This document shows, one piece after another, positions 2,831 to 22,992 of a stretch of DNA of 64,000 nt; within the stretch, counting starts at the first letter, position 1, and the number at the start of each line of letters is the position of its first letter. Under the pieces are notes generated by a model, which had not been told where the DNA came from, ran no database searches, and saw nothing but the letters and a program-made list of their open reading frames with translations. This stretch comes from Thermovorax subterraneus. GTDB taxonomy: Bacteria; Bacillota; Thermosediminibacteria; Thermosediminibacterales; Thermosediminibacteraceae. Both the position numbers and the translations under genes were made by a program. Where the stretch lies: the NCBI GenBank assembly GCA_021608145.1, contig JAKIHM010000011.1, positions 1 through 64,000 on the forward strand, written 5' to 3'.

Positions 2831-2863
2831 CACAATAACTCCTTTCAATCTACCAGATGAACT

Positions 2864-3946: not shown

Positions 3947-3997
3947 GTTACAACCTCCGCCTTTTGAAGTTTTTTGAACCCTCCTGCTTGGCTTTTC

Positions 3998-4552
3998 TCA
4001 ATCAATGCGGATAGTCTTCACATTGCGCACCCAGTAAGGTTTGTTCACATCACCGGGCTTCCGCTGGCCGACGACGAGCTGAAAGGGATTGCCATTGGCC
4101 GGATTAATTTCCTTCCCGTTTTCCTCCCATGCAAGAATCATTTTGTACCTAGCTTTGGGATTTTGCTCATCGATATAGTTTTCCCTCTTAACATCATCAA
4201 GGCTAAATTCCACGCTGTAGCCGTCCTCGGCTATGAAGGTAACCTTTGAGGCATTTTCCTTTATTTTCACCTTTTCCTTCAAAATATGCCAGACCCAAAC
4301 ACCTTTAAAACGAGTATATTCTTTAGTCCCGTAAGAGTTTATGGAAAAGTAATCGGCTTCTACCAGGCCCTCATCCATAGACTTTAATTCGTCCAGCGTT
4401 AGATAAGCTTTGCTCTCTACGGCATCTCCCTCAATAACAACTATGCCCCGCGCGGCTTCTTCCCGCAGAGCACAACCGCCTCCTGCGGTGCATATAAGCA
4501 GGGATAGCAAAAAAATAACAGCTGCTTTTCTACAAATATAAGCATGCTGCAT
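3998..4552 (-). CDS. Secreted, probably lipid-anchored molybdopterin-fold protein
   Basis: 184 residues: a short hydrophobic signal (about 8-25) ending in a lipobox-like stretch TAGGGC with Cys27, then one sulfite-oxidase-like domain (LTLDELKSMD, FKGVWVWHIL, EDGYSVEFSLDD, YWVRNVKTIRI). Aligning with its paralogue at 8773-10098, Ser70 occupies the place of the Moco-ligand Cys, so cofactor binding in the usual manner is unlikely. ATG has AGGAGG eight bases upstream. It lies between the SLH protein and the S-component fusion and may be the membrane-proximal member of the set. The lipobox is imperfect, so plain secretion is possible. Confidence 0.75.
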   Translation of the reverse strand: MQHAYICRKAAVIFLLSLLICTAGGGCALREEAARGIVVIEGDAVESKAYLTLDELKSMDEGLVEADYFSINSYGTKEYTRFKGVWVWHILKEKVKIKENASKVTFIAEDGYSVEFSLDDVKRENYIDEQNPKARYKMILAWEENGKEINPANGNPFQLVVGQRKPGDVNKPYWVRNVKTIRID

Positions 4553-4761
4553 GCCTTATGCCTCCTGGTTATCAGACGTTCTAAAAGAATTCCAGCAGAG
4601 GAAAAGTTTTTCCGCTGCAAAAAATGGGCGTTCTAAATTTTATGATGAAAGGATAAGGAACGGGGCGGGTAACGGGGAAAAATGGAGCCTGACCCTCACT
4701 TTTCCCCTCCTGTCTTTCCCGCCTCCAAGCCTTTTTCGCTAACCGATTACCCAAGGTTTAC

Positions 4762-6990: not shown

Positions 6991-7009
6991 CTCAGTCCTC
7001 CCCTTTTTT

Positions 7010-8614
7010 CTAAAATTTTTTTAGGATTCGGTTTATGCAAACGTTGGGGGCTGCTATCCTGGCCCCGCAGTTACAAGCTTTTCCGATGATGTGGCAGTGC
7101 CGATGCCGCAATATCCTGTTATGCAAGAATCCGCTACAAATATGTTTACCACCGTAGCGATGGCTTCCATGGGCTAATCCGAGATATTGCCGCGGTCTAT
7201 AAACGGTATTATTATTTCTCCCGCCATAGTACTCATATCGGCACCATACATTATTATTACAGCCATAAGGACAGCCGGTATCGAAATACTTGTTGCCGGA
7301 AACATCTAGAATGAAAATAGCAATTATCCCATCATGGATGGCATCAATTTTATACCCTGTGCCATCCCCCGGCACGACAGTGTTGGCCGCATTGGCTTTT
7401 GCGGGCCGCTTGACAATCGTGCAGGTATCAATTACCTGTCCATCGGCACCCTTTGCAGTCATGGTAAGGGTATCCCCATCAATTTCGACTACCTGGTAGT
7501 TGCTGACCAACGCCTGCTGTTTGGCAATATAGTCAAGATCAGGGCCAGGCCTGTAGTACTTTGTCCCTGAATTGCCCATGACATAGACGATGCCCTCTCC
7601 GTCCGGACGAATTCGCCCATCCCGCAAAGGCTTGGTCCTCATGTAAACATGCTGGTGACCGACAAAGACCATATCAACATTATATTGTTCCAATATGGGC
7701 AGCCAATTTTTGCGTATCGATTCGTCAATGCCTTTATAATCAGCAACAACTGGGTATGGGGGATGATGAAAAACAGCAAGTTTCCACTTTTTATCAGTAT
7801 TTTGCAGGTCTTCACGAAGCCATTTTTTTACCGTTTCATCGGTGTTTTTATTGCTGTTCAGCACCACAAAATGAGCATTCCCGTAATCAAACGAGTAGAA
7901 TTCTTTTTTTAAACCGTCGGGACTGTTATCAGGCAGAGCAAAAAATTTTAGATACATACTCCCATCGTGATTTCCCATAGCCGGCATTACGGGGATTTTT
8001 GAAAATAATCTCGCCGCTGCATCGAGAAACTCTCCCCATTCCCTTTCATCGCTGCCGTTTTCCGTCAAATCCCCACCCAAAATGGCAAACCTGACTTGAG
8101 GATTCTTTCTGTAAATCTCCTCCAGCATACTCCTCCATTCTGTATATCCGGATTGGACATCGCCTAAATACAAGAAAGAAAAATTTTCCGTATCAGCGGG
8201 GGCAGTAGAAAAAGAGAAGGCGTCGCTCCAGGCTCCTTCCCTCCCTACCCGGTAGACGTACTGCGTATCTGGGTTCAAGCCTGTAAGCGTGACCGTATAT
8301 CTATAATGCACGCTGTCAAAGGGAGCCCCTTCAACATCCACCTGCTTAGCAGTACCAAAATCGCCATTAAATTTCTCTGCCTCTATGTACTGCACATGAG
8401 CCGGTAAATTGCCGGGCATAATCCAGGTAACGGTCTGCGTTGTAGCTGGATCCGCGGTCCAGGTCAAAATAATTCGATCGATCTGCAAAGATTCTTGTGC
8501 GAAAGTAACGGGAGAAAACAGCCAGCAAAACAAACCCGCCAGTAATAAGAAAACGACAATAATTTTTCTCACTGCTGCTTTAGTTCCACTGTAACTCATA
8601 AATCCAAATTTCAT
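7010..8614 (-). CDS. Secreted purple-acid-phosphatase-type metallophosphoesterase with frameshifted tail
   Basis: 534 residues as read. A signal peptide (1-40, VTFAQ) precedes a purple acid phosphatase N-terminal FN3-like domain (about 45-135) and a calcineurin-like metallophosphoesterase domain (about 140-375) with metal motifs GDVQSG, GGDLTENGSD, GNHDG, FHHPPYP and GHQHVYMR. These predict a surface phosphomonoesterase/diesterase. The final ~90 residues are Cys/His/Asn-rich and match nothing. In the +1 frame the same DNA (about 7140-7235) reads FIDRGNISD, a stop, then EAIATVVNI, a recognisable SLH repeat. So the original protein was S-layer anchored and has decayed by a frameshift and a nonsense change. 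The catalytic domain looks intact. AAAGGAG precedes the ATG. Confidence 0.8.
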   Translation of the reverse strand: MKFGFMSYSGTKAAVRKIIVVFLLLAGLFCWLFSPVTFAQESLQIDRIILTWTADPATTQTVTWIMPGNLPAHVQYIEAEKFNGDFGTAKQVDVEGAPFDSVHYRYTVTLTGLNPDTQYVYRVGREGAWSDAFSFSTAPADTENFSFLYLGDVQSGYTEWRSMLEEIYRKNPQVRFAILGGDLTENGSDEREWGEFLDAAARLFSKIPVMPAMGNHDGSMYLKFFALPDNSPDGLKKEFYSFDYGNAHFVVLNSNKNTDETVKKWLREDLQNTDKKWKLAVFHHPPYPVVADYKGIDESIRKNWLPILEQYNVDMVFVGHQHVYMRTKPLRDGRIRPDGEGIVYVMGNSGTKYYRPGPDLDYIAKQQALVSNYQVVEIDGDTLTMTAKGADGQVIDTCTIVKRPAKANAANTVVPGDGTGYKIDAIHDGIIAIFILDVSGNKYFDTGCPYGCNNNVWCRYEYYGGRNNNTVYRPRQYLGLAHGSHRYGGKHICSGFLHNRILRHRHCHIIGKACNCGARIAAPNVCINRILKKF

Positions 8615-8772
8615 AAATCCGGCTCCTTTATCAATATAAAAGCCTCCTTCCGCAACAGGAAGCTCGCCTATTTCAAGGCGAACCCTAACGGCCCGAAGAC
8701 CATGGGTGCAACCTTCAGGTCATGGGGCTTGGAGCAATATTCTTTTAGGTGCATACAAATTCCCAGCAATGT
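8615..8772. other. Intergenic leader with local stem-loops
   Basis: 158 bp between the 441-residue protein gene and the phosphoesterase gene, both minus strand. On the minus strand it can form CCATG/CATGG enclosing ACCT/AGGT, and a CGCCT...AGGCG hairpin, before the AAAGGAG of the next gene. It looks structured but I cannot assign it to a riboswitch class. It may serve RNA processing or stability within the operon. Confidence 0.3.
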
Positions 8773-10098
8773 TCACCGGGCAATGGTAATCTCGCGAGTT
8801 TTTGGATTATAATCCACTGCAGCGCCCAGTGTCTCGCTCACGAATCGCAGAGGTATAAAGGTGCGGCCTGGCGGAAGTATAACCGGGGCGCAATCGATGG
8901 TCTGATGCATGCCGTTAACCAGAACATCGCTGGAACCAACTGTGAGGACAATCTTCTTTTCTTCATCAGTAATGATTACCCGTCGAGTTTCACCGTCCCA
9001 AGTAACCTTAGCTCCTAATGCCTCGCTGACAAAGCGCAGCGGGACCAGCGCGCGTCCAACTTCGGTATTTAAGTATGGTGCTGTATCCAGGGTGTAAGGA
9101 ACACCGTCGATACTGGCTTTTATACTTCCAGGAGTGAGCTGGATAACTTTAAGCGATGGCTTTACATCGGCTACCTGGTAAGTAAATGTGACGATATCGC
9201 TGTCTAACTTGCCGGGCCCAATTGTAATCGCCTTAATGATGGTATCTTCATAAATAGGACCAATGGGGCGATTGATTTTTCCCAGGACATCTGCCCTGGC
9301 TGACCACCACCGTCTGGAAATCCAGTTGTACATGGGACTATTCAGGTTGGGGTCGCTGCCGTCCAGGGTATAATAAATCTTAGCATCATCATCGTTGGGA
9401 ATGCTAAGCGTCACCATGGTCCCTGGAGGTACTGTACCGCTACCTGGATTGGCCTGCGGAGGATCCCATTTTTCCGGCTCGTCGGTAAGCACCTCTATCT
9501 TATTAAGATATTTAACGAATAAATTCCCTGTTTGCTCTGTTACGGTGCGCTGTCCTAACATCAGCATTGGGCAATTCAAATCGTTCATGTATTCGGGGTT
9601 ATTGGTTCCCTCAGCATTGACCAGAGCAATGATAGGTTCTACCTTTACTTTCCCGGAAGGATCTCCGGGAATATGCCCTTCACTCTCCGAACCCTTTTTA
9701 AAATTTGGAAAACAATAACGCTCGTCGTGAAATAGCTCCTTCATTGTAAGCACTACCGTGTAGCCGTCGACAGCCGTAAATCTTATTAGTTTAGCCTCTC
9801 TTTCCTTAATCCCCGCTCTGACGAGCAAATCCCACAGTTTGACTCCTCTCCCTACATACCATCTCTTGCTGGGCCAGGTGTTAATGCAGCTGTACACTAC
9901 CTGATGCTGTTCCATTTTTTCCAGATCTTTCAGAGTAAACTTCACCGGATTTGACACTCCATCTCCAGTTATTTCAAGCGAGTACGATTCCGCAAGGGTA
10001 GTAGTGGGAAGCATTATGATGAACGCAGAAGTAAATAAAAGTACTCCGGCTAACATATAAACCAAAAAGGCTACCACTTTCCTTTTATCAGCTTGCAT
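8773..10098 (-). CDS. Secreted molybdopterin-fold protein with chitobiase-type and copper-amine-oxidase-N domains
   Basis: 441 residues. Signal peptide (1-36); sulfite-oxidase-like domain (about 37-205) with KFTLKDLEKME, GRGVKLWDLL and DGYTVVLTMKEL; a CHB_HEX_C-type domain (about 215-315, GTMVTLSIPNDDDAKIYYTL); and a copper-amine-oxidase N-terminal-type repeat pair (about 325-441: RALVPLRFVSEALGA and RTFIPLRFVSETLGA), usual in cell-surface proteins of this group. Cys71 in VVYSCINTW aligns with the Moco-coordinating Cys of the family, unlike the paralogue at 11083-12801 (Thr). The first ~320 residues are clearly paralogous to that protein. It follows the ExbB-DUF2149 pair and is probably in the same transcript. 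Whether it binds molybdopterin is unknown. Confidence 0.82.
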   Translation of the reverse strand: MQADKRKVVAFLVYMLAGVLLFTSAFIIMLPTTTLAESYSLEITGDGVSNPVKFTLKDLEKMEQHQVVYSCINTWPSKRWYVGRGVKLWDLLVRAGIKEREAKLIRFTAVDGYTVVLTMKELFHDERYCFPNFKKGSESEGHIPGDPSGKVKVEPIIALVNAEGTNNPEYMNDLNCPMLMLGQRTVTEQTGNLFVKYLNKIEVLTDEPEKWDPPQANPGSGTVPPGTMVTLSIPNDDDAKIYYTLDGSDPNLNSPMYNWISRRWWSARADVLGKINRPIGPIYEDTIIKAITIGPGKLDSDIVTFTYQVADVKPSLKVIQLTPGSIKASIDGVPYTLDTAPYLNTEVGRALVPLRFVSEALGAKVTWDGETRRVIITDEEKKIVLTVGSSDVLVNGMHQTIDCAPVILPPGRTFIPLRFVSETLGAAVDYNPKTREITIAR

Positions 10099-10113
10099 TT
10101 AACATTCCCACCT

Positions 10114-10413
10114 TTACAAGTCACCATCTTCGGTCAGCATAAACAGCTGCCCCGTTTCGGGGTCTTTATAGACTGTGCCAATCCGCTCGTAGAGTTTACC
10201 ACGGTCGTGAGCTTCAATCAGATCTTCACGTATCTGGGGAACTTTCGTCACCTCCCGTCCGCGATTTATGTTGATTCGCTCTCCAACAGGCCCAAGATCT
10301 ATATTCCAGTAAATAGCAAGAGCTAGCATTAACCCGCAGGCAAATACCACCATAGCATCCGCGATGTTTATAACTCCTTCAATAGGATTGACCTCTTCTG
10401 ACATCTTAAGCAT
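10114..10413 (-). CDS. DUF2149 family single-pass membrane protein, ExbD/TolR-like partner
   Basis: 99 residues: short cytoplasmic N-terminus (EEVNPIEGVINIADAMVVF), one transmembrane helix (about 22-36) with the following Asp (YWNIDLG), and an external domain ending in KDPETGQLFML. This is the DUF2149 pattern, which I recall mostly from archaea next to MotA/TolQ/ExbB channels. The layout of one N-terminal helix plus outer domain matches ExbD/TolR/MotB. A longer frame begins at 10446, but AGGAGG ahead of ATG 10413 and its overlap with the ExbB stop support the shorter protein. The translational overlap suggests a fixed stoichiometry with the channel. ExbD homology is functional analogy, not demonstrated. 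Confidence 0.75.
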   Translation of the reverse strand: MLKMSEEVNPIEGVINIADAMVVFACGLMLALAIYWNIDLGPVGERININRGREVTKVPQIREDLIEAHDRGKLYERIGTVYKDPETGQLFMLTEDGDL

Positions 10414-11086
10414 CCTGTTCCTCCTGCTTCTCAACCCTCTGTCCATGAGCAGACACCTCCAGTAAGCTTTCCATCAAGGCCTCCAGAGAGCTCAAGTACT
10501 CCTCATACCACCTTTTGCGCAACCGAGAAATGGTAAAAGCTACACCAGCAGCCGCAAGGCTTATTACCGTCGTGTCAAAGGCAACTAGTAGAGATTCCGA
10601 TAAGGTTCTAGTGTCTCCCTGGCCAAGGGCAAGTATTCCCGGCCCAAGTGGAATAAGGGTACCCATTAACCCAAACATAGGTGCAAGACGGGCAACCAGG
10701 TCTGTCCAGCCTACTATCTTTGAATAATGTAGTTCCTCCGCGGCTATCAGGTGCCGAGCCAGCGCCTGTAAGGATGCGGCAGGCAAATTACCGTGCCTTA
10801 TTAGCTCGCACAAAGCCTCTTTATGCCGCCGGAATAGGCAGCTTTGCCGGACAATTTCCATTATCTCCTCGGTATTTTTATCCTGAAAGGCATCGACCAG
10901 TTCTTGCACATTAACTTTCATCCGGCGCCGTTCTATAATAGCTTCCACCAGCAGGCTACCGAGTTCAACCACCGACACTGCTAAAAGCAGTAGCAGTATA
11001 ACAATTGTAGGTATCAATAAGCCGCTGGAGATTACATGCATTGTATCTTTTAGAGGCATTAAAATGGCTTCTATCATTATGCTCAT
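10406..11086 (-). CDS. MotA/TolQ/ExbB family proton-channel protein
   Basis: 226 residues with three membrane segments: about 20-45 (GLLIPTIVILLLLLAVSVVELG), about 125-150 (LVARLAPMFGLMGTLIPLG) and about 165-190 (LLVAFDTTVISLAAAGVAFTISRL). The APMFGLMGTLIPLG and FDTTVISLAAAGVAF motifs are the hallmark of ExbB/TolQ channel helices, including the conserved Thr. With DUF2149 it should form a proton-driven stator that works on an extracytoplasmic protein. The upstream 572-residue protein overlaps it by 4 bp and has a C-terminal membrane anchor, making it the best candidate partner. ExbB/TolQ normally energise outer-membrane processes, so its place in a Gram-positive surface operon is notable. A second ATG three codons in is possible. 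Confidence 0.85.
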   Translation of the reverse strand: MSIMIEAILMPLKDTMHVISSGLLIPTIVILLLLLAVSVVELGSLLVEAIIERRRMKVNVQELVDAFQDKNTEEIMEIVRQSCLFRRHKEALCELIRHGNLPAASLQALARHLIAAEELHYSKIVGWTDLVARLAPMFGLMGTLIPLGPGILALGQGDTRTLSESLLVAFDTTVISLAAAGVAFTISRLRKRWYEEYLSSLEALMESLLEVSAHGQRVEKQEEQDA

Positions 11087-12801
11087 AGCTCCTTTACAAA
11101 TTCGATATATTTTTTGCCTGCACCAGAAAGTAAGAGGAGCAGAATTATAGCTGCAATATAGAAAGCCAGATTCTTTTGTCGCGCCGGCAAAGGTATGGGC
11201 ATAACAGTCCCAAACGTTATCTCGTATACCCGAACCTTATTTGGGCTGTTTTCCGACATTGAGGTTACGCCGGCGGTGGTAAAATTCGCCTCGATATCTT
11301 GTTTACGTACCAAATACCGCCAGTTGCCTTCGAGTTCTGGTGCCTCGCCTTCGGTTGTTGAAGCGAGAACTTCCTGATCCTCTTCTGCCGCTGTAGTGGC
11401 TTCACCTGCTGGTTCCGACATCCTGTCGGTAATTTCCGGTTCCTCATCGTAAATTGAAGCAGAAACTGCCGTTTCCTTTTCTGCAACCTTCTGCTCATCC
11501 GTATCCGACAGCAGGTCTGAGGGCTCCTCCTTGGTCTTGGCCATATGTTCTGTAGCGTCATTCTCGCTTTTTTCATCCTCTAGGCCACGTACAATACAGG
11601 TAGCCACGTGGCCGCCGACTATAGTTTTTGCAGTAATGATTGCTGTACCCCGGCCCACAACCGTGACAAGGCCTCCGGCATCCACCGTGGCAACGCTGGT
11701 ATCGCTAGAACTCCAGACCACCCTCTGGTCAACGGCGTTAAACGGAGCTACACTTGCTTCCAGACGGAAAGTACTCCCTACTGGTAGATCAATTTCATTC
11801 CGGTCAAGGGTCACACTGGTAGGCGGCCCACCGGGGATTTTGGTCGGATCTGCCAACTTGCCGGTACGATCGACTTTATAAGTAAATGTGACAACTTCGC
11901 TGTCTTCTTTGCCGGGCCCAACGACAATAGCCTTGATGACTATGTCCTCTTTTATTTCGATAGGACGGTTTACACTTTCCAGATTATTTCTTAAAGGCCA
12001 CCAACGACTGGCAGACCAGTTAAACATCGGGCTGTTCACGGTCGGGGTGCTACCGTCTATCGTGTAATATATCTTAACTTCATTATCGAACTTACTGCCA
12101 AGAGTTATCACAGTACCCTCCGGCACAACGGTTCCGCTAGGTATACTGGCCTTAGGGGGATCCCATTTTTCCGGGTCGGTGGTGAGCACCTCAATTTTAC
12201 TCACATGTTTTAAAAATAAATGATTGGTCTGTTCGGTTACTGCTCGCTGGCCAAATATCAGCTGCAAAGCATCTCTGTCATTCATATCGGCGGGATTATC
12301 GCTTCCTTCAGCACTGACCAGAGCCAGGATCGGCTCGACTTCCACCGCACCCTCTGCAGAACCGGGAATGCTCCCGTCGCTGGGGTGATTATCCTTTAAA
12401 CGCGGGAAATAATAACGCTTGTCTTTTAACAACTCTTTAACGGTGAGGGTTACCTCATAACCATCTTTCGATATAAATTTAATTAATTTGGCCTCTTTCT
12501 TGATTCCTGCAAGGTCTAGCAAATCTCTCAATTTTACCCCTCTTGCCGTATACCATCTCTTCGTTGGCCAGGTGTTTATCGTGCTGTAAACATGCTGATA
12601 TTGCTCCATTGCCTCAAGTTCCGTTAACGTTAACTTCAGAGGTGTTGTTACCCCACCTCCTGTAATTTCAAGCGATTCTGAGGTTTCAGCAAAAGCCTTT
12701 CCTGGTCCTGTAATATGAAATAAAGCTACGGACAGAAACAGAACAAGAGCGATTTTCAAAAGTTTGTATAGCGATTGGAGACCAATACTGCGGGTAACCA
12801 T
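11083..12801 (-). CDS. Membrane-anchored surface protein: molybdopterin-fold, chitobiase-type and Ig-like domains
   Basis: 572 residues. Signal peptide (1-38); sulfite-oxidase-like domain (about 40-205: LTLTELEAMEQ, ARGVKLRDLL, DGYEVTLTVKEL); CHB_HEX_C-type domain (about 215-315: TVITLGSKFDNEVKIYYTI); BIG2 Ig-like domain (about 335-410: DLPVGSTFRLEASVAP, WSSSDTSVATV); an acidic Glu/Thr-rich stalk (about 415-500); and a C-terminal transmembrane helix (about 545-562) with a short basic cytoplasmic tail. Thr74 sits where the Moco-ligand Cys would be. First gene of its run, with GGGGAGAGG upstream and a leader of about 380 nt from the promoter at 13188-13216. Type I topology plus overlap with the ExbB gene suggests it transmits motor force outward, as TonB does (inference). 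Confidence 0.82.
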   Translation of the reverse strand: MVTRSIGLQSLYKLLKIALVLFLSVALFHITGPGKAFAETSESLEITGGGVTTPLKLTLTELEAMEQYQHVYSTINTWPTKRWYTARGVKLRDLLDLAGIKKEAKLIKFISKDGYEVTLTVKELLKDKRYYFPRLKDNHPSDGSIPGSAEGAVEVEPILALVSAEGSDNPADMNDRDALQLIFGQRAVTEQTNHLFLKHVSKIEVLTTDPEKWDPPKASIPSGTVVPEGTVITLGSKFDNEVKIYYTIDGSTPTVNSPMFNWSASRWWPLRNNLESVNRPIEIKEDIVIKAIVVGPGKEDSEVVTFTYKVDRTGKLADPTKIPGGPPTSVTLDRNEIDLPVGSTFRLEASVAPFNAVDQRVVWSSSDTSVATVDAGGLVTVVGRGTAIITAKTIVGGHVATCIVRGLEDEKSENDATEHMAKTKEEPSDLLSDTDEQKVAEKETAVSASIYDEEPEITDRMSEPAGEATTAAEEDQEVLASTTEGEAPELEGNWRYLVRKQDIEANFTTAGVTSMSENSPNKVRVYEITFGTVMPIPLPARQKNLAFYIAAIILLLLLSGAGKKYIEFVKEL

Positions 12802-13722: not shown

Positions 13723-14427
13723 TCATTCCTCATATTTTTGAATCATCTTGAGCTTAAATCTATTGAGTAACTTAATGAAGCCTGGACCGAAAAGCAGGTA
13801 AAATGCCGCATTGCCCGCGGCGTGAAAAGTATCAAACCAGAAACTTGCCGCACAGACTGCTATAAAACTCTGCCAGTTTAATGGTTTAACAAAAGTAGTC
13901 CATGACCACAAGTTTAAAATCCATCCAAAAAAATACCCCCATAAAAAGCAGAAAACGACCATTCCCCATCTGCCTATGTGCGGGAAGAAGCATTTAACGA
14001 TACCGGCCGATGAGCCGGCAAGACCCCAGGCAAACATCTGCCACGGTGTCCACGGCCCCTGCCCCAGAAAAAAGTTTGAAACCAGGGCCGCAGTGGAACC
14101 CGTCATAAAACCAGCGGTCGGGCCGAAGACATACCCGGAAGCTATTGCTATAAATGTGGTAGGCTGTACGTTGGGCAGGGCGGCAAAGGCAACCCGGCCT
14201 GCAGCGCCAACGGCCCCCAGCACCGCTATTAGGGCAATTTCCCTAGGAGAGGAAGCGTCCAGTTCAAAGCCCAGGTACATCAAACCAACAGCGCCAAGGA
14301 TGATAATAGATGCTGTCAGCCCCCATTCCCGGGTGATGGAAGTCTTTCCCGAGATGGTGACCGCGAGAAAAACCGGGATAATCGCAAATCCGAGCCAGAA
14401 CAGAATTTTGGACAACAGTTTTTTCAT
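13723..14427 (-). CDS. cbrT: ECF transporter S component, CbrT-like (predicted cobalamin)
   Basis: 234 residues with six membrane helices and features of ECF S components (REIALIAVLGAVGAAGRVAFAALP near the N-terminal third; QPTTFIAIASGYVFGPTAGF; GQGPWTPWQMFAWGLAGSSAG). It is the substrate-specificity subunit of the transporter whose T and A-A subunits lie directly upstream. The cobalamin riboswitch at the head of the operon and the T/AA/S order match predicted and studied CbrTUV B12 importers. A longer frame begins at 14532 inside the ATPase gene; I prefer ATG 14427, which has AAGGAAG six bases upstream and sits 14 bp after the ATPase stop. The symbol is by context as much as by sequence. Confidence 0.75.
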   Translation of the reverse strand: MKKLLSKILFWLGFAIIPVFLAVTISGKTSITREWGLTASIIILGAVGLMYLGFELDASSPREIALIAVLGAVGAAGRVAFAALPNVQPTTFIAIASGYVFGPTAGFMTGSTAALVSNFFLGQGPWTPWQMFAWGLAGSSAGIVKCFFPHIGRWGMVVFCFLWGYFFGWILNLWSWTTFVKPLNWQSFIAVCAASFWFDTFHAAGNAAFYLLFGPGFIKLLNRFKLKMIQKYEE

Positions 14428-14441
14428 AAGCATCTTCCTTT

Positions 14442-16112
14442 TCACTTTCTTTCCCACTTTCCGTGCGACGCAGGTTTTAACACGGCCAGAGCTTCTTCCG
14501 GAGTCAGAATGCCGTCTGCAAAGCCCCGGCACATCCTGCCGATCTGGGTAGAATAAAAAATCGACTCTGATAGGACCTGATGTGCCGGACCATCACATAC
14601 TATCCTGCCACAGAACATCATGATCACTCTCGATGCGTATTCTGCGGCAAATTCCACATCGTGGGTGGTCAGCACAACACTTGCTCCCTGCCTGCAGTAT
14701 TCCACCAGCACCTTCCCCATTTCGGCCTTCTGGCGATAGTCAAGCCCCCTGGTAGGTTCATCCAGCAACAAAAGCTTTGGCTTGGTGACCATAACCGAGG
14801 CCAGGGCCACCTTCTGGCGTTCCCCACAGCTCAAATCCCGTGGGTTTGCATGTCGAAAGTCCTGTAGCGAAAGCTTATCCATTATTTCATCAACTATACC
14901 GTTCGGGCTGATACCGAAATTTTTTAAAGTATATAATAATTCTTCCTCTACAGTATCATGAAACAGGTAATCGCTGGGATTCTGGGAAAGGTAACCCACC
15001 CATGAATTCCAGACCCTCCGACTACTGCTGCTCCCCGGTTCCCCGCCCATCAACATTACCCGGCCGCGCCCTGGTTTTAACAGGCCTGCCATAGTTTTGA
15101 GTAGCGTGGATTTGCCCGCTCCGTTAGCTCCCAGCACGGCCACCAGCTCTCCGGCATAAAATTGTAAATTTATATCCTGCAACGCTTCCCTGCCATCGGG
15201 ATATGCAAACCATACCCTCTCCATTCGTAAGAGCGGTTCTTCTTCGTGCACAACCCCGGGATGCTTTAAATAAAAATCGCTCGAAGGAAGGTTAAAGTTT
15301 TCTCTCAGCATACGCCGTCCTTCTTTTACCGTGACGGGAATCGTATTAAAACCTGCCTTAGCAAAGAAGCGGGCGACAGGTGGGATAAAAGGGGTTTCAC
15401 ACTGCGCCGCCCGGCGTGCCACCTGCTCAGGTGTGCCCTCAAACCTTATTCTCCCATCTTCCATAAGCAAAACTCTGTCCGCTAAATGAAAACATCTTTC
15501 AAGACGCTGTTCTATTAAAATCACGGTCATGCCTAAATCTTCATTCAAACGTTTTACAAGATTAAAAAATTCCTCCGCCGCTACCGGGTCCAGTTGAGAA
15601 GTGGGCTCATCAAGGATTAAAACCGAAGGCTGCATGGCAAGCACCGCAGCCAAGGCAAGTTTCTGTTTTTGGCCGCCGGATAGTTTCGCAGTAAATTCTC
15701 GCCTTAATTCCGAAAGCCCCAAAAAGCTCATGACTTCAGCAATACGACGGGCCATCTCCTGCTGTGGAAGGCCCAGGTTTTCCAGGCCAAACGCAATTTC
15801 GGCCTCCACGCTTGTCATGATCAGCTGTTTTTCCGGATCCTGGAAGACTATCCCCACCTCTCTGGCTATACTGCATTGTTCAAGTTGCTTAATATCTTTG
15901 CCCCGAAAGAAAACGCTGCCACCTATGCGGCCACCATAAAAGCCGGGAATTAAGCCCGCGAGCACCCGAGCAAGAGAAGATTTACCCGAACCAGAACTGC
16001 CAGTGATGAGCAAAAACTCTCCCTCTTCAATATTCATATTTACGTCTTTTAATGCAGGCTTCTGACTGTCGGGGTAAAAATACGTCAGATTTTTGATTTG
16101 ATAAAGGGGCAA
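14442..16112 (-). CDS. cbrU: ECF transporter duplicated ATPase (A-A fusion), CbrU-like
   Basis: 556 residues with two complete ABC ATPase domains. Domain 1: Walker A GSSGSGKSS (about 37), Q-loop FQDPEKQLI, signature LSGGQKQKL, Walker B VLILDEPTSQLD. Domain 2: GANGAGKST (about 330), LSCGERQKV, LLLLDEPTRGLD. Each has a following His switch. It hydrolyses ATP to drive the adjacent EcfT and S subunits. Start is TTG with GGGGGTGG upstream, overlapping the EcfT end by 28 bp, so the two are translationally coupled. It lacks the T domain that is fused to its system B counterpart. Confidence 0.85.
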   Translation of the reverse strand: MPLYQIKNLTYFYPDSQKPALKDVNMNIEEGEFLLITGSSGSGKSSLARVLAGLIPGFYGGRIGGSVFFRGKDIKQLEQCSIAREVGIVFQDPEKQLIMTSVEAEIAFGLENLGLPQQEMARRIAEVMSFLGLSELRREFTAKLSGGQKQKLALAAVLAMQPSVLILDEPTSQLDPVAAEEFFNLVKRLNEDLGMTVILIEQRLERCFHLADRVLLMEDGRIRFEGTPEQVARRAAQCETPFIPPVARFFAKAGFNTIPVTVKEGRRMLRENFNLPSSDFYLKHPGVVHEEEPLLRMERVWFAYPDGREALQDINLQFYAGELVAVLGANGAGKSTLLKTMAGLLKPGRGRVMLMGGEPGSSSSRRVWNSWVGYLSQNPSDYLFHDTVEEELLYTLKNFGISPNGIVDEIMDKLSLQDFRHANPRDLSCGERQKVALASVMVTKPKLLLLDEPTRGLDYRQKAEMGKVLVEYCRQGASVVLTTHDVEFAAEYASRVIMMFCGRIVCDGPAHQVLSESIFYSTQIGRMCRGFADGILTPEEALAVLKPASHGKWERK

Positions 16113-17014
16113 TTATGCCACCCCCAACTCAATATTAACGGGAAGGATAACAGAAAAATTACGGCGAAAAGGAGCACTAATTCCGTAAGCCCGTCAATAA
16201 GGCAATCGAGCCGCGGGTAAAAGCTGAATGTGCCCAGGCCTTTGGCCCAACCGTATATCGCCGCTCCAAGGGCGAGCAGGCTTGCGGCAAGGCAGATACT
16301 ATCTCTAGGCCTCCAAGCATCGCGGACATAGTGTGAACGCCTTCCGCTGCCAAAGGCCCTCGCATACATTGCTTCCGCTGTTTCCATGGAATCTTCAAGA
16401 GAAGTTAAAAGCAGTATTTTTATCAATAGGGCGTATTTCCCCATCTTTTCTTTTAATGTTCCCGTATTAAAATCGACTCCTCTCGCCGTCTGGACTTCCC
16501 TTATACTGTCCAGGCGACTTACCATGGCGGGGAACATCCTGGCGGCGAGGGAAAGCACCAGCGCGGACTTGAAAGAAAAGCGAGACAGCAAGTCCAGGAC
16601 CCGGTCAGGGTGAATCGTAAAATTGTAAAGGCAAAAAATGCTCATTATATCCAGAAGCCTTAATCCCATGTCTGCACCATAGCAAACAGCCTCCATTGAG
16701 ACGTTCAACCTGCCGAAAACTGGGATGTACGGTCCGTGCCATATAATGGTCTCGCCGGCGCGGACTGTAATTGCATTTACAATTATGATAACAAAAGCTG
16801 CCCCCATGCTTACTTTAAGAAAAGATTTCCAGGCATCTATCCCGTCAACAGCTTTAATGGCCGTGACTGTAACTGCGAGCAGTCCAAGGAGGTAAAGGGG
16901 GTGGTTGAACATCAATACCAGCCCCAACAAAACTGCGATATATGTTAACGCGGACAGCGGGTGAAGACTCTGCAAAAATAGCCCTTTTTCTCTATAAAAA
17001 AAGCGGTCCAGCAT
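16085..17014 (-). CDS. cbrV: ECF transporter transmembrane EcfT subunit, CbrV-like
   Basis: 309 residues. Membrane helices at the N-terminus (LTYIAVLLGLVLMFNHPLYLLGLLAV) and the CbiQ/EcfT cytoplasmic coupling region with the two Ala-Arg-Gly-type motifs (EVQTARGVDF about 178 and AMYARAFGSG about 216). It couples ATP hydrolysis in the A-A protein to the S component. GAGAGGAG lies nine bases before the ATG. It begins 15 bp after the DUF4430 anchor protein gene, supporting a single operon from the riboswitch through the S component. Confidence 0.85.
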   Translation of the reverse strand: MLDRFFYREKGLFLQSLHPLSALTYIAVLLGLVLMFNHPLYLLGLLAVTVTAIKAVDGIDAWKSFLKVSMGAAFVIIIVNAITVRAGETIIWHGPYIPVFGRLNVSMEAVCYGADMGLRLLDIMSIFCLYNFTIHPDRVLDLLSRFSFKSALVLSLAARMFPAMVSRLDSIREVQTARGVDFNTGTLKEKMGKYALLIKILLLTSLEDSMETAEAMYARAFGSGRRSHYVRDAWRPRDSICLAASLLALGAAIYGWAKGLGTFSFYPRLDCLIDGLTELVLLFAVIFLLSFPLILSWGWHNCPFIKSKI

Positions 17015-17029
17015 TATAATTTTCTCCTC

Positions 17030-17842
17030 TCAATTTTGAGGCGAATTCTTAACCAAACTCTCCCAGTCGGGAGAGGGGGTGTTGATGCTCTCGCTGTACC
17101 ACCAGATTATCCTGTCGCCCGGTTTAATCTTTTTTTCACTTGCTGCAGCCATTGGCACCTCGTCGTTTACTTTGTACATCCAGCCCGACATACCTTTGTT
17201 TGCCTCTCCTGCTATGCTTATGACAAAACCACCGTACGTCGGACTGGTCTTGTATTCAATCCCGGTGGAATCGAGAGCACCCAGCACCGTCAACCCCCAC
17301 CTGTTGTTCTCTTCTACTGCCACCTTTGCAGGGCCGTACAATACCCGACCTTCTTTTCCGACTATGGCGATTTCCACCTGACATTCGCCTGCTGCGGCAG
17401 AAGTTGAGCCAGTTTCTTTTGTAGTATCACTGCCGGCATCGGCGGTCTCTTTTTTATCAGAGGAGGCCGAAGGCATATTAACCTCAGAGGAAACCGCGGC
17501 ACTGCTCGCCGAAGTACCCCTGCTGCCGGCAGACACAGATTTAGCATTAGGAGTCTGCCTTATTTCTGTCTGTAATTTTACGTCGGCAGGCTCTGCATTT
17601 TCACCGATCTTTTTTTCAACAGTAATGCTACCCGGAGCAGTGCCTGTTTCCTTCTCTGGCACATCGCCCGCAAGTGCACCAGCTTTCTGCTCTGTCTGGC
17701 CGTTTATTATAGCACTCGTCGGCTTTGTATTCACATTATTAGACATCAAAGACCCGTGGTTTTTTTCAGCCGTGGTTAAGGTTATTATTATGGCAAGTAG
17801 CAGTGCTATAATAATTGAAAACTTTACACCTTGGTTTTTCAC
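17030..17842 (-). CDS. Membrane-tethered DUF4430 (transcobalamin C-domain-like) protein
   Basis: 270 residues. An N-terminal hydrophobic helix (about 8-24) without a lipobox probably acts as signal anchor. A long low-complexity linker follows (about 30-150, rich in Ala/Ser/Thr/Glu/Lys), then one DUF4430 domain (about 152-262) with CQVEIAIVGKEGRVLYGP, WGLTVLGALDSTGIEY, GMSGWMYKVNDEVP and KPGDRIIWWYSE. DUF4430 is annotated in Pfam/InterPro terms as transcobalamin-like. The same motifs occur in the SLH protein encoded upstream. Its place between the wall-bound receptor and the ECF transporter suggests it passes ligand across the wall to the membrane (inference). GTG start with GGGGG upstream. 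Confidence 0.8.
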   Translation of the reverse strand: MKNQGVKFSIIIALLLAIIITLTTAEKNHGSLMSNNVNTKPTSAIINGQTEQKAGALAGDVPEKETGTAPGSITVEKKIGENAEPADVKLQTEIRQTPNAKSVSAGSRGTSASSAAVSSEVNMPSASSDKKETADAGSDTTKETGSTSAAAGECQVEIAIVGKEGRVLYGPAKVAVEENNRWGLTVLGALDSTGIEYKTSPTYGGFVISIAGEANKGMSGWMYKVNDEVPMAAASEKKIKPGDRIIWWYSESINTPSPDWESLVKNSPQN

Positions 17843-17878
17843 TCATATCCCCCACTGCAACAAGGTTTTAATTTGAGT

Positions 17879-20800
17879 CTATTCTCCTCCCATAATCCGG
17901 TATATTATAACGACGGTTTCCGCCCTGCTGGCCGTAGCTTTCGGCCGGAATGTGCCGTCTTCAAACCCCTTGAGCAACCCACCGGCTACGGCAGCAGCTA
18001 CACTCTCCTCGCTCCACGGCGAAATTGTTTTTCTATCTTTAAAATCCGGCTTTTCCCCAGATGAGGCAAGCCCGAATGTACGGGACAGGATGACCGCAAT
18101 TTCCTCCCTGGTAATGGTACCTTCAGGGCGGAAAGTGCCATCTTCATAGCCGTTGACAAAACCCCAGTCCGCAGCGGTGTACACGGCATTTGCATACCAT
18201 GCATCTTCTTTTACGTCTTTGAATTGTCCTTTTCTGCCTGTCTTTGGTTCAAGGCCCAGTGCTTTAACCATAAGAGTGACAAACTCGGCCCTGGTCACCG
18301 CACGGCCCGGCTCGAAATGAGTTCCGTCAACACCCGTCACAATTCCGGCTCCGCCTAGAACTTCAACAGCATCCTTAGCCCACTCGAAAGATACCTCGTT
18401 GACATCAGCAAATGACCTTTTTACCTCTTTTGCAAACACGGCAACTTCGGAGAAGTGTTCTAACTTAGCCAGAATGACACCCTTTTGCAGGTCTACCACA
18501 GCAGGGATAACCGTCCACCTGCCGACTTCTTTATCATACCAGGCAAGGGCCAGGTTTTCCGGTTTTACCAGGGGCGGAACAGCAATTCTTATAGCCACTG
18601 TTACGGACAGAGTAAAAGAGGTTCCGTCCGGGCCAAATTGATAAATCCCCGATAAAGCTTTGTAGCCGGCAGGAATTGCGCTCAAAGCTTTGTCACCGGT
18701 GAGTTTCTCTGCTGATGGCATATTGGTCTCTTTGATCGATATTGTCACATCCTTTTTCAATGCACCTGCCGAAATGATAAGGGCTATTTCCTCTTTGCTG
18801 TCGGCAATGATCGCCCCTGTTGAAGCGGCTACCTTTTTCTCAACATCAACCGCATTTTGAAGAAGCATTTCTTTCAAATTCAAAAATTCACCGCGTTTAA
18901 ACGGTCCACGGTTTCCAACAACCACTACCGATTTGCCTGTCTCTCCAAGACCCACCGCATCTTTTGTATTCGCTTTTATTCCGAGCAATTGGTCGACTTT
19001 TTCAAGTGCTTTCAGCGCTTCATCGGAAACCTGCAAAGCCTGTGGTAGTTTTTTATTCTGTTCTGCAAGGTCAGAAGAGATAGCGTCTTCCTGTTGCTGA
19101 ATCACTTTTTTGTTAACCAGTTCTTCCCACGTGGGGCCGCTAGAATTTATGTCTGTACTGTACCACCAGATGATTTCATCACCTTCATTTATAGCAAATT
19201 TGGAGGCCAGGACAGAAGGTATCTTGCCGTTGACTTTATACATCCATCCACTCATGCCTTTGTTAGCCTGTCCTTCAATGCTTTTGACAAAGCCGTTATC
19301 ATCGACGTAATCCAGGCCAGTAGCGTCAAGGGCTCCCAGGGCCGTCAAACCCCATTTCCCATCTGCCCTTACAGTGACGGAACGGGGACCGAATAGCAGC
19401 TCTCCATCTTTGCCCACTACTGCGATATTTACAGTACACTTGACCTGAACCTGATCCGAACCGGGCTGGGAAGATCCCGGCGATTCAGCTTCCCCATCAA
19501 TTAGGATAAATGCGCTTAACGCTTCGGCAGCGTCAAGAATATTTCCCATTGAGCCGAAACTGCCGTCGGAGTTCAGCGCTTTCTGCATCATGTAGTCAAC
19601 AGGAGTGAAGCCCTGGCTGCTCTTCCAGTCAGCGGGATTCTTGCCCAATTTCTTCAATGTAACAATTGCCTCGGCGGTATCCACCACCGGATCATCCGGA
19701 TAGGGCTTTGTGGTATATACGCTGCCGTCGGGCTGCAACTGTTTTTTAAGATAAACAAGGCCTTTTTCTATGGCATCCAGAATCTGCTTGTCTTCTGAAG
19801 CCCCGGGCAGGTATGTCAGTGCCCGAATGGCCTGAGCTGTTGACATAAAGTCGGGGAAAAACACGCCATTCCATTCTTCTCCCCAGGAGCCGGCGTTATC
19901 GCCCGATAGGTTCTGCTTACCCAGTATGTAACTTCGCGCTTCAGCCGTATTTATTTCATTTATCTTCCCCGCTTCTCCCAGGGCAATATACGCCCACATG
20001 TCGCTGTAGACACTGTTGTCAAAGCCTTTTGAAGAATGCCTTTCCTTTAAAAGATTTACCAGTCTGTTTACCCTGTCCTCGTCCTTCCAGAGGTTTAAAG
20101 CCAGTATATGCTGGGCGATGGTCTTTGTCTTCGATCTTTTTATCCAGGTAGAACCAGCGCCAGCGTAGTCATTATATGTTTTCCCCACTGATTTCAGAGC
20201 TATGAGGGTTTCAGCCGTCGCAAAGGTGCTGTCCCACTGGGCTTTTATGGCCGCGGTCTCGGGGTCCTGGATGTCCGCGAGATAAGTGAGGCCGCCCTGA
20301 ATGGCATTATAGACATCGCTGTCGGGATTGCGAGCCGCATCAAAATAGCTGAGGGCCGTAATAACCTGTGCAGTCAGGTCGGGCTCTTCAGGATAATAAC
20401 CTCCCCATGCGACACCCGCATCATTGCCCCAGCTATCCTCGTGCGGGCGTTTAAATTTATTGAGATAATTAAATGCCTTTTGCTGGTCTATGAGGTTGAG
20501 TTTACCTGCCTTGCCGAGGGCGGTCAGGACCATGACATCGTCGTAGATGCTACTACCAAAATAAACCGAATCTTCAACAGTTTTCCCTTTATCCGCGATA
20601 GTCCGGGCCAGAGTGTCTATATTATCAGATTGCGGGTCTACCGCACGAAGGGCAGTCAACTCTTTTGCAAGGTAGACGGCATCGAGGACGGAAGCGTTGC
20701 TGGCAGCAGCGGCAGCCGAGGTAATGACTATATCCTTTAGAGACTTGCCGCCGTATACCCATGTGGAAAGGTCTTCTCCAGCGTCGGAGAGGGCTTCCAC

Positions 20801-21361
20801 ACACCGGTAGTCGAATTTCCACCCCTGGGCATCATAAGTCAGGGATCCTTTCAAATAACGATCCTTGAAATATGTTATGGCTTTTGAAATACTATCCTGC
20901 ACCTGGCTTTTTAAATTGCTATCGGTTATTTCATTCTTTACCATCGCCAGTGCCTGCAGAGGAGCTTTGGTGCCGTATTCGTTGGCATAAGGGCCAAAAC
21001 TGCCATCAGCGTTCTGTGTAGCCAGGATATATGTAATCAGGCTGTTGCTATTGCCAAGAAAGTCCGCATTTTTCTGAATTTCATCCTCCAGGCTCTCACC
21101 ATTCCTGGACCATTTTTCCGACGAAAGATCTTCTCCCGCCAGGGTTAGGACGTATGCGGTGTAGCCGTCAATTTTTTCGCCGGCTTTGTATCTATCGTTA
21201 ATGAACTGCACAGCCTTATCGGCCAATTGTTTAGCGGTATAACTCTCAGCCTGCGTGGCAGCCTGGGCTGCAGTCAGAGTCACCCCACCAACAGTGATGC
21301 TTAATAAAAGGCAAAATACCAGAATAATCGATACCAGACGCTTTTTGATTTTATACAACAT
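17879..21361 (-). CDS. SLH-anchored intrinsic-factor-like protein: alpha/alpha toroid + DUF4430
   Basis: 1160 residues. Signal peptide (1-35, AQAATQAES); a long prenyltransferase/squalene-cyclase-type alpha/alpha toroid (about 40-625) with recurring motifs such as ILATQNADGSFGPYANE, ALAMVKNEI, ITALSYFDAARNPD and AEAIVTLKKLG; a DUF4430 domain (about 640-745: GLTALGALDATGLDY, GMSGWMYKVNGKIP, EGDEIIWWYS); a beta-rich region (about 850-980: DVTISIKETNMPS, VEHFSEVAVF-like end); and three SLH repeats (about 985-1160). Toroid followed by a small beta domain is the plan of intrinsic factor, haptocorrin and transcobalamin. First gene after the cobalamin riboswitch, with AAAGGTGG upstream of ATG. Predicted wall-bound corrinoid receptor; binding untested. 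Confidence 0.85.
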   Translation of the reverse strand: MLYKIKKRLVSIILVFCLLLSITVGGVTLTAAQAATQAESYTAKQLADKAVQFINDRYKAGEKIDGYTAYVLTLAGEDLSSEKWSRNGESLEDEIQKNADFLGNSNSLITYILATQNADGSFGPYANEYGTKAPLQALAMVKNEITDSNLKSQVQDSISKAITYFKDRYLKGSLTYDAQGWKFDYRCVEALSDAGEDLSTWVYGGKSLKDIVITSAAAAASNASVLDAVYLAKELTALRAVDPQSDNIDTLARTIADKGKTVEDSVYFGSSIYDDVMVLTALGKAGKLNLIDQQKAFNYLNKFKRPHEDSWGNDAGVAWGGYYPEEPDLTAQVITALSYFDAARNPDSDVYNAIQGGLTYLADIQDPETAAIKAQWDSTFATAETLIALKSVGKTYNDYAGAGSTWIKRSKTKTIAQHILALNLWKDEDRVNRLVNLLKERHSSKGFDNSVYSDMWAYIALGEAGKINEINTAEARSYILGKQNLSGDNAGSWGEEWNGVFFPDFMSTAQAIRALTYLPGASEDKQILDAIEKGLVYLKKQLQPDGSVYTTKPYPDDPVVDTAEAIVTLKKLGKNPADWKSSQGFTPVDYMMQKALNSDGSFGSMGNILDAAEALSAFILIDGEAESPGSSQPGSDQVQVKCTVNIAVVGKDGELLFGPRSVTVRADGKWGLTALGALDATGLDYVDDNGFVKSIEGQANKGMSGWMYKVNGKIPSVLASKFAINEGDEIIWWYSTDINSSGPTWEELVNKKVIQQQEDAISSDLAEQNKKLPQALQVSDEALKALEKVDQLLGIKANTKDAVGLGETGKSVVVVGNRGPFKRGEFLNLKEMLLQNAVDVEKKVAASTGAIIADSKEEIALIISAGALKKDVTISIKETNMPSAEKLTGDKALSAIPAGYKALSGIYQFGPDGTSFTLSVTVAIRIAVPPLVKPENLALAWYDKEVGRWTVIPAVVDLQKGVILAKLEHFSEVAVFAKEVKRSFADVNEVSFEWAKDAVEVLGGAGIVTGVDGTHFEPGRAVTRAEFVTLMVKALGLEPKTGRKGQFKDVKEDAWYANAVYTAADWGFVNGYEDGTFRPEGTITREEIAVILSRTFGLASSGEKPDFKDRKTISPWSEESVAAAVAGGLLKGFEDGTFRPKATASRAETVVIIYRIMGGE

Positions 21362-21506
21362 AATCTCAACCCACCTTTTCAGATTTAATTTTTTGCAATT
21401 ATCAAAATCGATTTTTACTCAAGTATGCTAATATGCTGTTTTTCCTTAAAACACCTCCCCTTCAAAGGGCTCCCCTCAGAGGTGGGTTGAAACAGACCCA
21501 ATGATG

Positions 21507-21546
21507 AAATAAAATAAAAGCCCTGGCTCCTCAAGATAAGCCAGGG
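21507..21546 (-). terminator. Riboswitch expression-platform terminator
   Basis: On the minus strand CCCTGGCT (21539-21546) pairs with AGCCAGGG (21521-21528) around a 10-nt loop and is followed by CTTTTATTTTATTT (21507-21520). It lies between the cobalamin aptamer and the first gene, the standard place for a transcription attenuator that stops when ligand is bound. Confidence 0.85.
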
Positions 21547-21600
21547 GATATAAGTCAGTGGTAAACTGTTCCCCATCCTGCGTAGGGAGCACCAGTTTGA

Positions 21601-21743
21601 CAGCAGGCCTCAGGTCTCCTGGCTCGGATTCACCGCTCCCCCACGCCTTCCCAGGTTATTCCCAGTGGCATGATGTGGGGGCGCTCCTCCTCACAGTGGC
21701 GCGACCGCGCCGGATTTTCACCGGCTTCCCTTGTTGCCTGCCG
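21601..21743 (-). ncRNA. Cobalamin (AdoCbl) riboswitch aptamer
   Basis: Read on the minus strand the conserved blocks appear in order: GGCAGGC (P1 5' side), AAGGGAAGCCGGTGAAAATC, GCGCCACTGTGAGGAGG, CTGGGAA...GGAAGGCG, and the B12 box GAGCCAGGAGACCTG, closing with GCCTGCTG as P1 3' side. These match the cobalamin riboswitch family (RF00174) closely. A promoter precedes it and an intrinsic terminator follows, so it should repress the surface/ECF operon 21361-13723 when B12 is plentiful. Confidence 0.95.
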
Positions 21744-21764
21744 AATTATTTATTTGTACCATAA

Positions 21765-21793
21765 ATTATATTAATAATTCATAGAACCGTCAA
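21765..21793 (-). promoter_or_regulatory. sigmaA promoter for the B12 operon
   Basis: Minus strand TTGACG (21788-21793), 17 bp spacer, TATAAT (21765-21770). Predicted start near 21758, about 15 nt before the riboswitch P1 helix and about 400 nt before the first gene. Confidence 0.8.
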
Positions 21794-22089: not shown

Positions 22090-22992
22090 TCATTCGGATA
22101 AAGCTTTTTTAAGGTTTTCGAGATTTTCCTGCATAATTGAAAAATAATCCTTGCCAGCCTTTATTTCTTCATATGTAAGCCCACCAATGGGATTCAGTAC
22201 CAGGGTTTTGGCTCCTACCTCCTGGGCCAGGGTTTCGGAAAGTTTAGGGCTTACTAGAGTTTCAAAGAAAATGTATTTTATATTCTTTTGCCTGCAAAGT
22301 TCGGCCAGTTCCGCCATTTTCTTAGGCGAAGGTTCCTCCTGAGGTGAAAGTCCTGAAATCGGTATCTGCACTAATCCGTATCTTTTTGCCATGTAGCCAA
22401 ATGCCGCATGGGATGTAATAAACTCTTTTCTATTCAGATTTGCCAGGTTTTCTCTATAGCTTTTGTCTAGTTCATTCAGTTTTGCCGCCAGTTCATTGAA
22501 GTTTTCTTCATAATAGGATTTGTTGTCGGGATCGGCGGCAGCTACTGCATCATATATACGGCGGGCCATTTCTTTAGCAAGGACAGGATCCAGCCAGATG
22601 TGAGGGTCATGATTTTCTATAAGGCCTTTTCCTGCTTCCACTACCGTTATCCCCTTATCCCTGAGCTGCCCTTCCAGCTTTTTGGCCCAGGGTTCCATGA
22701 CATCTCCAAGAAATACGAATACCTCAGCATCGTAAATCCCGGCTATTTGCTTTGGGGAAGGTTCATAATCGTGTGGTTCCACTCCTGCCGGTATAATGTT
22801 CTCTACCTGGGCTCTGTCCCCTACTATTTTTTTGGTAAAATCATACAGCGGATAAAAGGTAGTGTAAATGACAAGGCGACTTGAATTAGCTTTGGTAGGA
22901 GCATAATCGGCTCTTTTTGCAGCACAACCGGCCACCGTAAAAATTAGGGAAAAAATTGCAATGAATACTATTGCTTTTTTAAACCTTTTCAC
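22090..22992 (-). CDS. ZnuA/TroA-type metal-binding lipoprotein (Zn/Mn ABC importer solute-binding protein)
   Basis: 300 residues with a signal peptide and lipobox VAGC (Cys23), then the bilobal TroA fold: TTFYPLYDFTKKIVGD, IPAGVEPHDYEPSPKQIAGI (metal His), HDPHIWLDPVLAKEMA (His), ITSHAAFGYMAKRYGL (His) and the C-lobe FFETLVSPKLSETLAQEVGA. It should capture Zn2+ or Mn2+ outside the membrane for an ABC importer. No permease or ATPase gene lies beside it, so it must use components encoded elsewhere. The His-rich loop typical of strict ZnuA is short. GTG start with GGAGGAGG upstream; a GCAAAT-T-ATTTGC palindrome lies 19 bp before it. Confidence 0.85.
   Translation of the reverse strand: MKRFKKAIVFIAIFSLIFTVAGCAAKRADYAPTKANSSRLVIYTTFYPLYDFTKKIVGDRAQVENIIPAGVEPHDYEPSPKQIAGIYDAEVFVFLGDVMEPWAKKLEGQLRDKGITVVEAGKGLIENHDPHIWLDPVLAKEMARRIYDAVAAADPDNKSYYEENFNELAAKLNELDKSYRENLANLNRKEFITSHAAFGYMAKRYGLVQIPISGLSPQEEPSPKKMAELAELCRQKNIKYIFFETLVSPKLSETLAQEVGAKTLVLNPIGGLTYEEIKAGKDYFSIMQENLENLKKALSE

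Follow-up and report, generated by a model that had tools for sequence, protein, structure and literature searches.

A 64,000-nucleotide stretch of Thermovorax subterraneus DNA (contig JAKIHM010000011.1; hereafter, the window) carries a set of five genes that very probably forms a corrinoid acquisition operon controlled by a cobalamin riboswitch (probability about 0.8). The set encodes a candidate surface receptor, a tethered DUF4430 protein and an energy-coupling factor (ECF) importer of the CbrT type. This reading rests on the riboswitch and terminator, the gene content, the homology of the S component to CbrT, the transcobalamin-like fold of the receptor and the linkage of these genes in many genera. 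Capture of B12 from outside is largely untested in Gram-positive bacteria, although corrinoid exchange shapes microbial communities. The operon provides a complete and widespread candidate route, comprising a surface receptor, a tethered binder, an importer and a switch, every step of which can be assayed. The intrinsic factor/transcobalamin family of animals is also proposed to derive from bacterial operons of this type.

Leader, importer and surface proteins

The leader is followed by five closely spaced genes, all of which lie on the minus strand (Table 1). An earlier sequence-only reading, made by a model without database searches, had placed a promoter, an aptamer and a terminator ahead of genes for a receptor, a tethered DUF4430 protein, EcfT, an ATPase with two ABC domains and an S component; all of these elements were found, and the coordinates were right. 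A search with RF00174, as suggested in that reading, identified the cobalamin (Cbl) riboswitch with a score of 100.5 bits (gathering score 31.5; E = 5.9e-24), and an independent 126-position core model made in this work placed it at 21609-21732 (-) with 127.3 bits. Promoter-like sites are not enriched as a class (14 found, 11.7 expected from shuffles). The isolated terminator stem folds at -16.7 kcal/mol. The conserved aptamer segment AGCCAGG (21624-21618) is complementary to the 5' arm of this stem, and pairing of the two may have an antiterminator role. We infer an OFF-type switch, in which the ligand favours the terminator.

Residues 98-263 of the S component match CbrT of Lactobacillus delbrueckii (PDB 6FNP chain A; E = 3.3e-13), which was reportedly predicted by Rodionov et al. 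in 2009. The motifs PNxQP, SNxFLGxGxWTxxQ and FDxxHAxGN are common to both proteins, and the score against the Pfam ECF S-component family is slightly under the cut-off. The likely start codon is an ATG near 14433, and not the GTG at 14532. The CbrT-type importer of the sequence-only reading is supported by a match to a solved, functionally proven protein and by the presence of EcfT and of two ATPase domains.

In the candidate receptor, a signal peptide is followed by two successive alpha/alpha toroids (residues 40-625, approximately), a transcobalamin-like beta-grasp domain (646-739; Pfam DUF4430 match at 676-735) and three SLH domains (about 980-1160). The genome encodes csaB, which is required for SLH anchoring, and the receptor is therefore likely wall-bound, as previously suggested. 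The tethered carrier candidate features a single N-terminal transmembrane segment, a linker rich in S, A and T, and a DUF4430 domain (158-254; Pfam match at 183-250), and lacks a lipobox. The two proteins score 56.3 and 61.9 bits against PF14478 (cut-off 23.8), and are the only DUF4430 proteins detected by a Pfam search of the host genome. Single-sequence PDB searches returned only the SLH domains for the receptor and nothing meaningful for the carrier. Such searches being uninformative, family profiles and structure prediction were required. A DUF4430 profile search matched transcobalamin-2 (8e-4), haptocorrin (2e-3) and intrinsic factor (6e-3), supporting, together with the best fold matches, the kinship of DUF4430 with the C-domain of these carriers.

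An AlphaFold model of receptor residues 31-750, obtained with 28 related sequences, has a predicted local distance difference test (pLDDT) score of 93.3 and shows two toroids, both wholly helical, together with a domain rich in beta structure. Searches of the PDB with Foldseek placed haptocorrin 4kki (6e-8), transcobalamin (4e-7) and intrinsic factor (2e-6) among the best matches, interspersed with drimenyl diphosphate synthases. When the second toroid and DUF4430 were modelled alone (pLDDT 81), ranks 1-15 were all haptocorrin, transcobalamin or intrinsic factor (best E = 1.3e-9), the next class appearing at 1.2e-4. Alignment of this shorter model with the transcobalamin beta domain in isolation (5no0) gives a target template modelling (TM) score of 0.67. 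The order of a toroid and then a beta-grasp domain, and the B12 carriers among the top folds, agree with the intrinsic-factor-like receptor that had been proposed.

At low intracellular corrinoid levels, the leader would be read through and the operon expressed. The S-layer-anchored receptor would clamp corrinoid between toroid(s) and DUF4430, as transcobalamin and intrinsic factor do. A single helix and a flexible linker would keep the second DUF4430 protein on the outside of the membrane. That protein may likewise bind corrinoid, and would next pass it to the CbrT-like S component, or concentrate it there, after which import of cobalamin or cobinamide through this S component would be powered by EcfT and the ATPase. 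Binding by both surface proteins, hand-over between them and this order of transfer are the putative steps of the scheme.

Table 1 Features of the operon and its leader (window coordinates)
Feature	Position	Strand	Basis
Sigma-70-type promoter, TTGACG-17 nt-TATAAT	21793-21765	-	11/12 consensus positions matched
Cobalamin riboswitch aptamer	21602..21742; RF00174 core 21612-21731	-	covariance-model match
Aptamer P1 helix, predicted	21742-21736 paired with 21609-21603	-	fold calculation
Intrinsic terminator	21507..21546; 9-pair stem 21546-21521, T-tract to 21507	-	stem with T-tract; fold calculation
Surface receptor candidate, 1160 aa	17879..21361	-	signal peptide, two toroids, DUF4430, three SLH
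Tethered carrier candidate, 270 aa	17030..17842	-	one N-terminal transmembrane segment, linker, DUF4430
EcfT (CbiQ family), transmembrane energising subunit	16085..17014	-	PF02361, E 1.8e-14
Fused EcfA-EcfA' ATPase, two ABC domains	14442..16112	-	Pfam; TIGR04520/TIGR04521 above cut-off
CbrT-like ECF S component	13723..14532	-	CbrT match, 6FNP chain A

A gene encoding a ZnuA/AdcA-like metal-binding lipoprotein (window 22090-22992, minus strand) lies directly upstream of the operon on the same strand, with no sign of co-regulation.

Distribution and host context

GTDB genomes were scanned with an alignment of the S component, which yielded 80 named loci with flanks of up to 10 kb; the toroid profile used in this survey was built with DUF4430 and SLH masked. 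The loci belong to Moorella, Desulfotomaculum and relatives, Syntrophomonas, Clostridium, Paenibacillus, Bacillus-type genomes, Lactobacillaceae, Actinomycetota and Thermoplasmata-type archaea. The operon includes a DUF4430 gene at 71 loci, and at all 66 loci in which it is not interrupted by a contig end. Two or more DUF4430 genes are found at 55 of the 80 loci, and a fused toroid and DUF4430 protein at 53. The conserved order (big DUF4430, small DUF4430, EcfT, double ATPase, S component) recurs in dozens of genera, and the five-gene arrangement is therefore not due to chance. At most loci, the small tethered DUF4430 gene directly adjoins the EcfT gene. A Cbl riboswitch is located on the same strand, at most 1 kb upstream, in 49 of the 66 uninterrupted operons; loci with no detected riboswitch include archaeal and lactobacillar ones. 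Among 299 genomes of the phylum, 102 possess the S component, 95 DUF4430 and 90 both (Fisher p = 4e-56, uncorrected for relatedness). Since 279 of these genomes carry a Cbl riboswitch, its presence at the genome level is uninformative, and its position is informative. Two well-assembled genomes from the same genus as the host lack the S component, indicating that the operon is accessory.

Several variants were observed. In Bacillus-type genomes, the domain order of the big protein is DUF4430-DUF4430-toroid. Separate toroid proteins, with or without SLH domains, occur within or beside the operon in many genomes (for instance, L066 6178-7557, L078 8428-9981 and L093 10636-11955). Very large additional DUF4430 surface proteins are encoded near the operon at L107 (14512-20605) and L076 (11765-16486); among proteins of this kind, one lies behind its own Cbl riboswitches, and another carries Big_2 and Cu_amine_oxidN1 domains. 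Compact DUF4430-EcfT-ATPase-S operons, with neither an in-operon toroid gene nor a detected Cbl riboswitch, are found in Thermoplasmata-type archaea (L082, L083, L098 and L133). In Secundilactobacillus kimchicus, an AraC-type HTH regulator fused to DUF4430 (L092 2361-3458, minus strand) is encoded near a CbrT-type operon with no detected riboswitch, and is possibly a protein corrinoid sensor replacing the riboswitch.

The 2.45 Mb host genome contains four Cbl riboswitches besides that of the operon. One precedes cbiM, together with genes for CbiQ, an ABC ATPase, CbiA, CbiD, several tetrapyrrole methylases, hemA and hemD, a synthesis operon that is apparently complete. Another precedes a BtuF-like binding protein gene, associated with FecCD permease, CobU and CobD/CbiB genes, and the remaining two lie ahead of CobT and of a CblT-like S component, respectively. 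The host thus seems able to make corrinoids and to have a second import route.

Alternative explanations and a second ECF locus

Several observations weigh against the corrinoid acquisition reading. Fold calculations on the leader prefer the terminated state (-93.3 versus -83.5 kcal/mol), and the proposed antiterminator is absent from the minimum-energy fold of a shorter transcript. The best DUF4430 profile match among structures is a "putative metal binding protein" (3u7z; 1.7e-4), and a DUF4430-like domain (E = 1.2e-8) is also present in an SLH protein regulated by a molybdenum cofactor (Moco) riboswitch (window 4762-6990); DUF4430 alone, therefore, does not specify B12. Global TM-scores of the predicted apo receptor to transcobalamin are modest (0.33-0.41), suggesting that the domain arrangement, or the less confident model of the shorter piece, departs from the closed holo form. 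In the models, the individual domains match the B12 carriers and their relative placement does not. Moreover, the need for a five-gene system is not obvious in a host with its own B12 synthesis and BtuF-BtuC-type import. Of the complete B12 acquisition pathway put forward in the sequence-only reading, the riboswitch, the CbrT-type S component, the intrinsic-factor-like architecture and the wall anchoring are supported. The implied dependence was overstated, as the synthesis operon and the BtuF-BtuC-type locus each lie behind their own Cbl riboswitch, and so was the novelty, as B12 scavenging by such operons had already been proposed by Burroughs et al. in 2007 (PMC1796856).

We tentatively propose, at somewhat less than even odds, that operons of this kind form an ECF class of their own that strictly requires a partner outside the cell: the tethered DUF4430 protein would dock on the S component and be loaded by the wall-bound receptor. 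If so, the receptor of such a relay would be the ancestor of the animal B12 carriers. ECF transporters are generally held to operate without extracellular binding proteins. The parts may also act in parallel, the importer moving B12 unaided and the DUF4430 proteins capturing or storing surface corrinoid with no hand-over. This is possible, at less than even odds: purified four-subunit ECF-CbrT of L. delbrueckii transports B12 in vitro without an extracellular binder (PMC5997447), and genomes G003, G102 and G177 feature a strong S component but no DUF4430, whereas the retention of at least one DUF4430 gene in every intact operon, of two or more at 55 loci, and the adjacency of the small gene to EcfT argue against it.

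It is unlikely that the operon imports cobalt, another tetrapyrrole or a lower-ligand precursor, B12 being merely the regulatory signal. Although the family annotations of EcfT and the ATPase refer to cobalt transport and a Cbl riboswitch controls the cobalt importer gene cbiM in the same genome, the operon lacks a CbiM/CbiN gene, Cbl riboswitches elsewhere in the genome precede a cbiM-cbiQ-ABC locus and, separately, a CblT-like S component, the S component of the operon resembles CbrT and the surface proteins share the B12-carrier fold. A distinct metabolite may apply in B12-making archaea, according to the passages of Burroughs et al. considered here (PMC1796856). A role of the toroid protein as a secreted terpene-cyclase- or prenyltransferase-type enzyme, incidental in the operon, is very improbable. 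Squalene-hopene cyclase is the closest match of the toroid profile (9e-48), but the protein is exported, SLH-anchored and fused to DUF4430, and the toroid fused with DUF4430 has B12 carriers as its best fold matches; a terpene cyclase identity was rejected because the cyclase DXDD motif is absent from receptor residues 1-650.

A second ECF locus of parallel design is located downstream (window 449-12801, minus strand), with a Moco riboswitch at 8627-8746 (-). It encodes a purple-acid-type phosphoesterase, the SLH protein mentioned above, in which sulfite-oxidase-fold and DUF4430-like domains are combined, a small Oxidored_molyb protein, a YkoE-like S component fused to Oxidored_molyb and an A-A-CbiQ (A-A-T) fusion. 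Relatives of this S component are preceded by a Moco riboswitch on the same strand in 10 of 12 neighbourhoods. The locus is a candidate salvage system for molybdenum/tungsten cofactor or molybdopterin, and its novelty may exceed that of the B12 operon; a term search of Regulski et al. 2008 (PMC2408646) gave no sign of such a system. At 10406-12801 (-), an ExbB/MotA-like gene lies beside a gene for a surface protein with a sulfite-oxidase fold and Big_2. This pair is preceded by a promoter (13216-13188, minus strand) matching 12/12 consensus bases, with no Rfam riboswitch there. The motif YSCINTW of the protein encoded at 8773-10098 reads YSTINTW in the related surface protein of this pair, and the molybdenum-ligand cysteine may therefore not be conserved.

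Relation to known systems

In the passages considered here, Burroughs, Balaji, Iyer and Aravind (2007; PMC1796856) described surface proteins of low-GC Gram-positive bacteria in which a toroid is combined with a transcobalamin-like SLBB (DUF4430) domain, the toroid being N-terminal in Desulfotomaculum and C-terminal in Bacillus. They also noted a second extracellular SLBB paralogue and operons with CbiO/CbiQ genes, proposed B12 scavenging, found that bacteria with such operons usually lack B12 synthesis, and suggested that the animal gene was acquired from such bacteria. The operon analysed here shares the fused toroid/beta-grasp protein, the second extracellular SLBB protein and the CbiO/CbiQ genes. 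In contrast, its receptor combines a double toroid with SLH domains for anchoring, its host has a synthesis operon, and neither a CbrT S component nor riboswitch control is described in those passages.

Santos et al. (2018; PMC5997447) proved ATP-driven import of cobalamin and cobinamide by ECF-CbrT of L. delbrueckii, the S component of which is homologous to that of the present operon over 166 residues. The ECF module of L. delbrueckii is common to several S components, whereas EcfT and a fused double ATPase are dedicated here. The L. delbrueckii gene cluster is nrdJ-cbrS-cbrT-pduO, in which cbrS is mentioned once and uncharacterised (PMC5997447). Some divergent loci (for instance, that of G082) feature a short DUF4430 reading frame immediately upstream of the S gene, and cbrS may be such a gene.

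The B12-scavenging logic, predicted in 2007, and ECF-CbrT transport, proven in 2018, are not new. The present analysis adds the identity of the S component, the riboswitch link, the breadth of distribution, the SLH/double-toroid variant and the co-existence with B12 synthesis and BtuFC-type genes. No paper testing corrinoid binding by these bacterial surface proteins was found in the literature searched, which mostly does not cover subscription journals, and a Dehalobacter corrinoid-starvation proteome (PMC4285132) contained nothing on this system.

Mammalian intrinsic factor, transcobalamin and haptocorrin, the best fold matches, have the same succession of an alpha/alpha toroid and a beta-grasp domain at an identity of about 13-17%. 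Unlike these carriers, the bacterial receptor is wall-anchored and has an extra second toroid, and would deliver its ligand to an ECF transporter rather than an endocytic receptor. In Bacteroides, the surface capture protein BtuG is paired with BtuB, an outer-membrane TonB-dependent importer. The logic of surface capture followed by import is alike, but the folds are unrelated and the transporter is TonB-dependent and in the outer membrane, so that the resemblance is one of analogy only.

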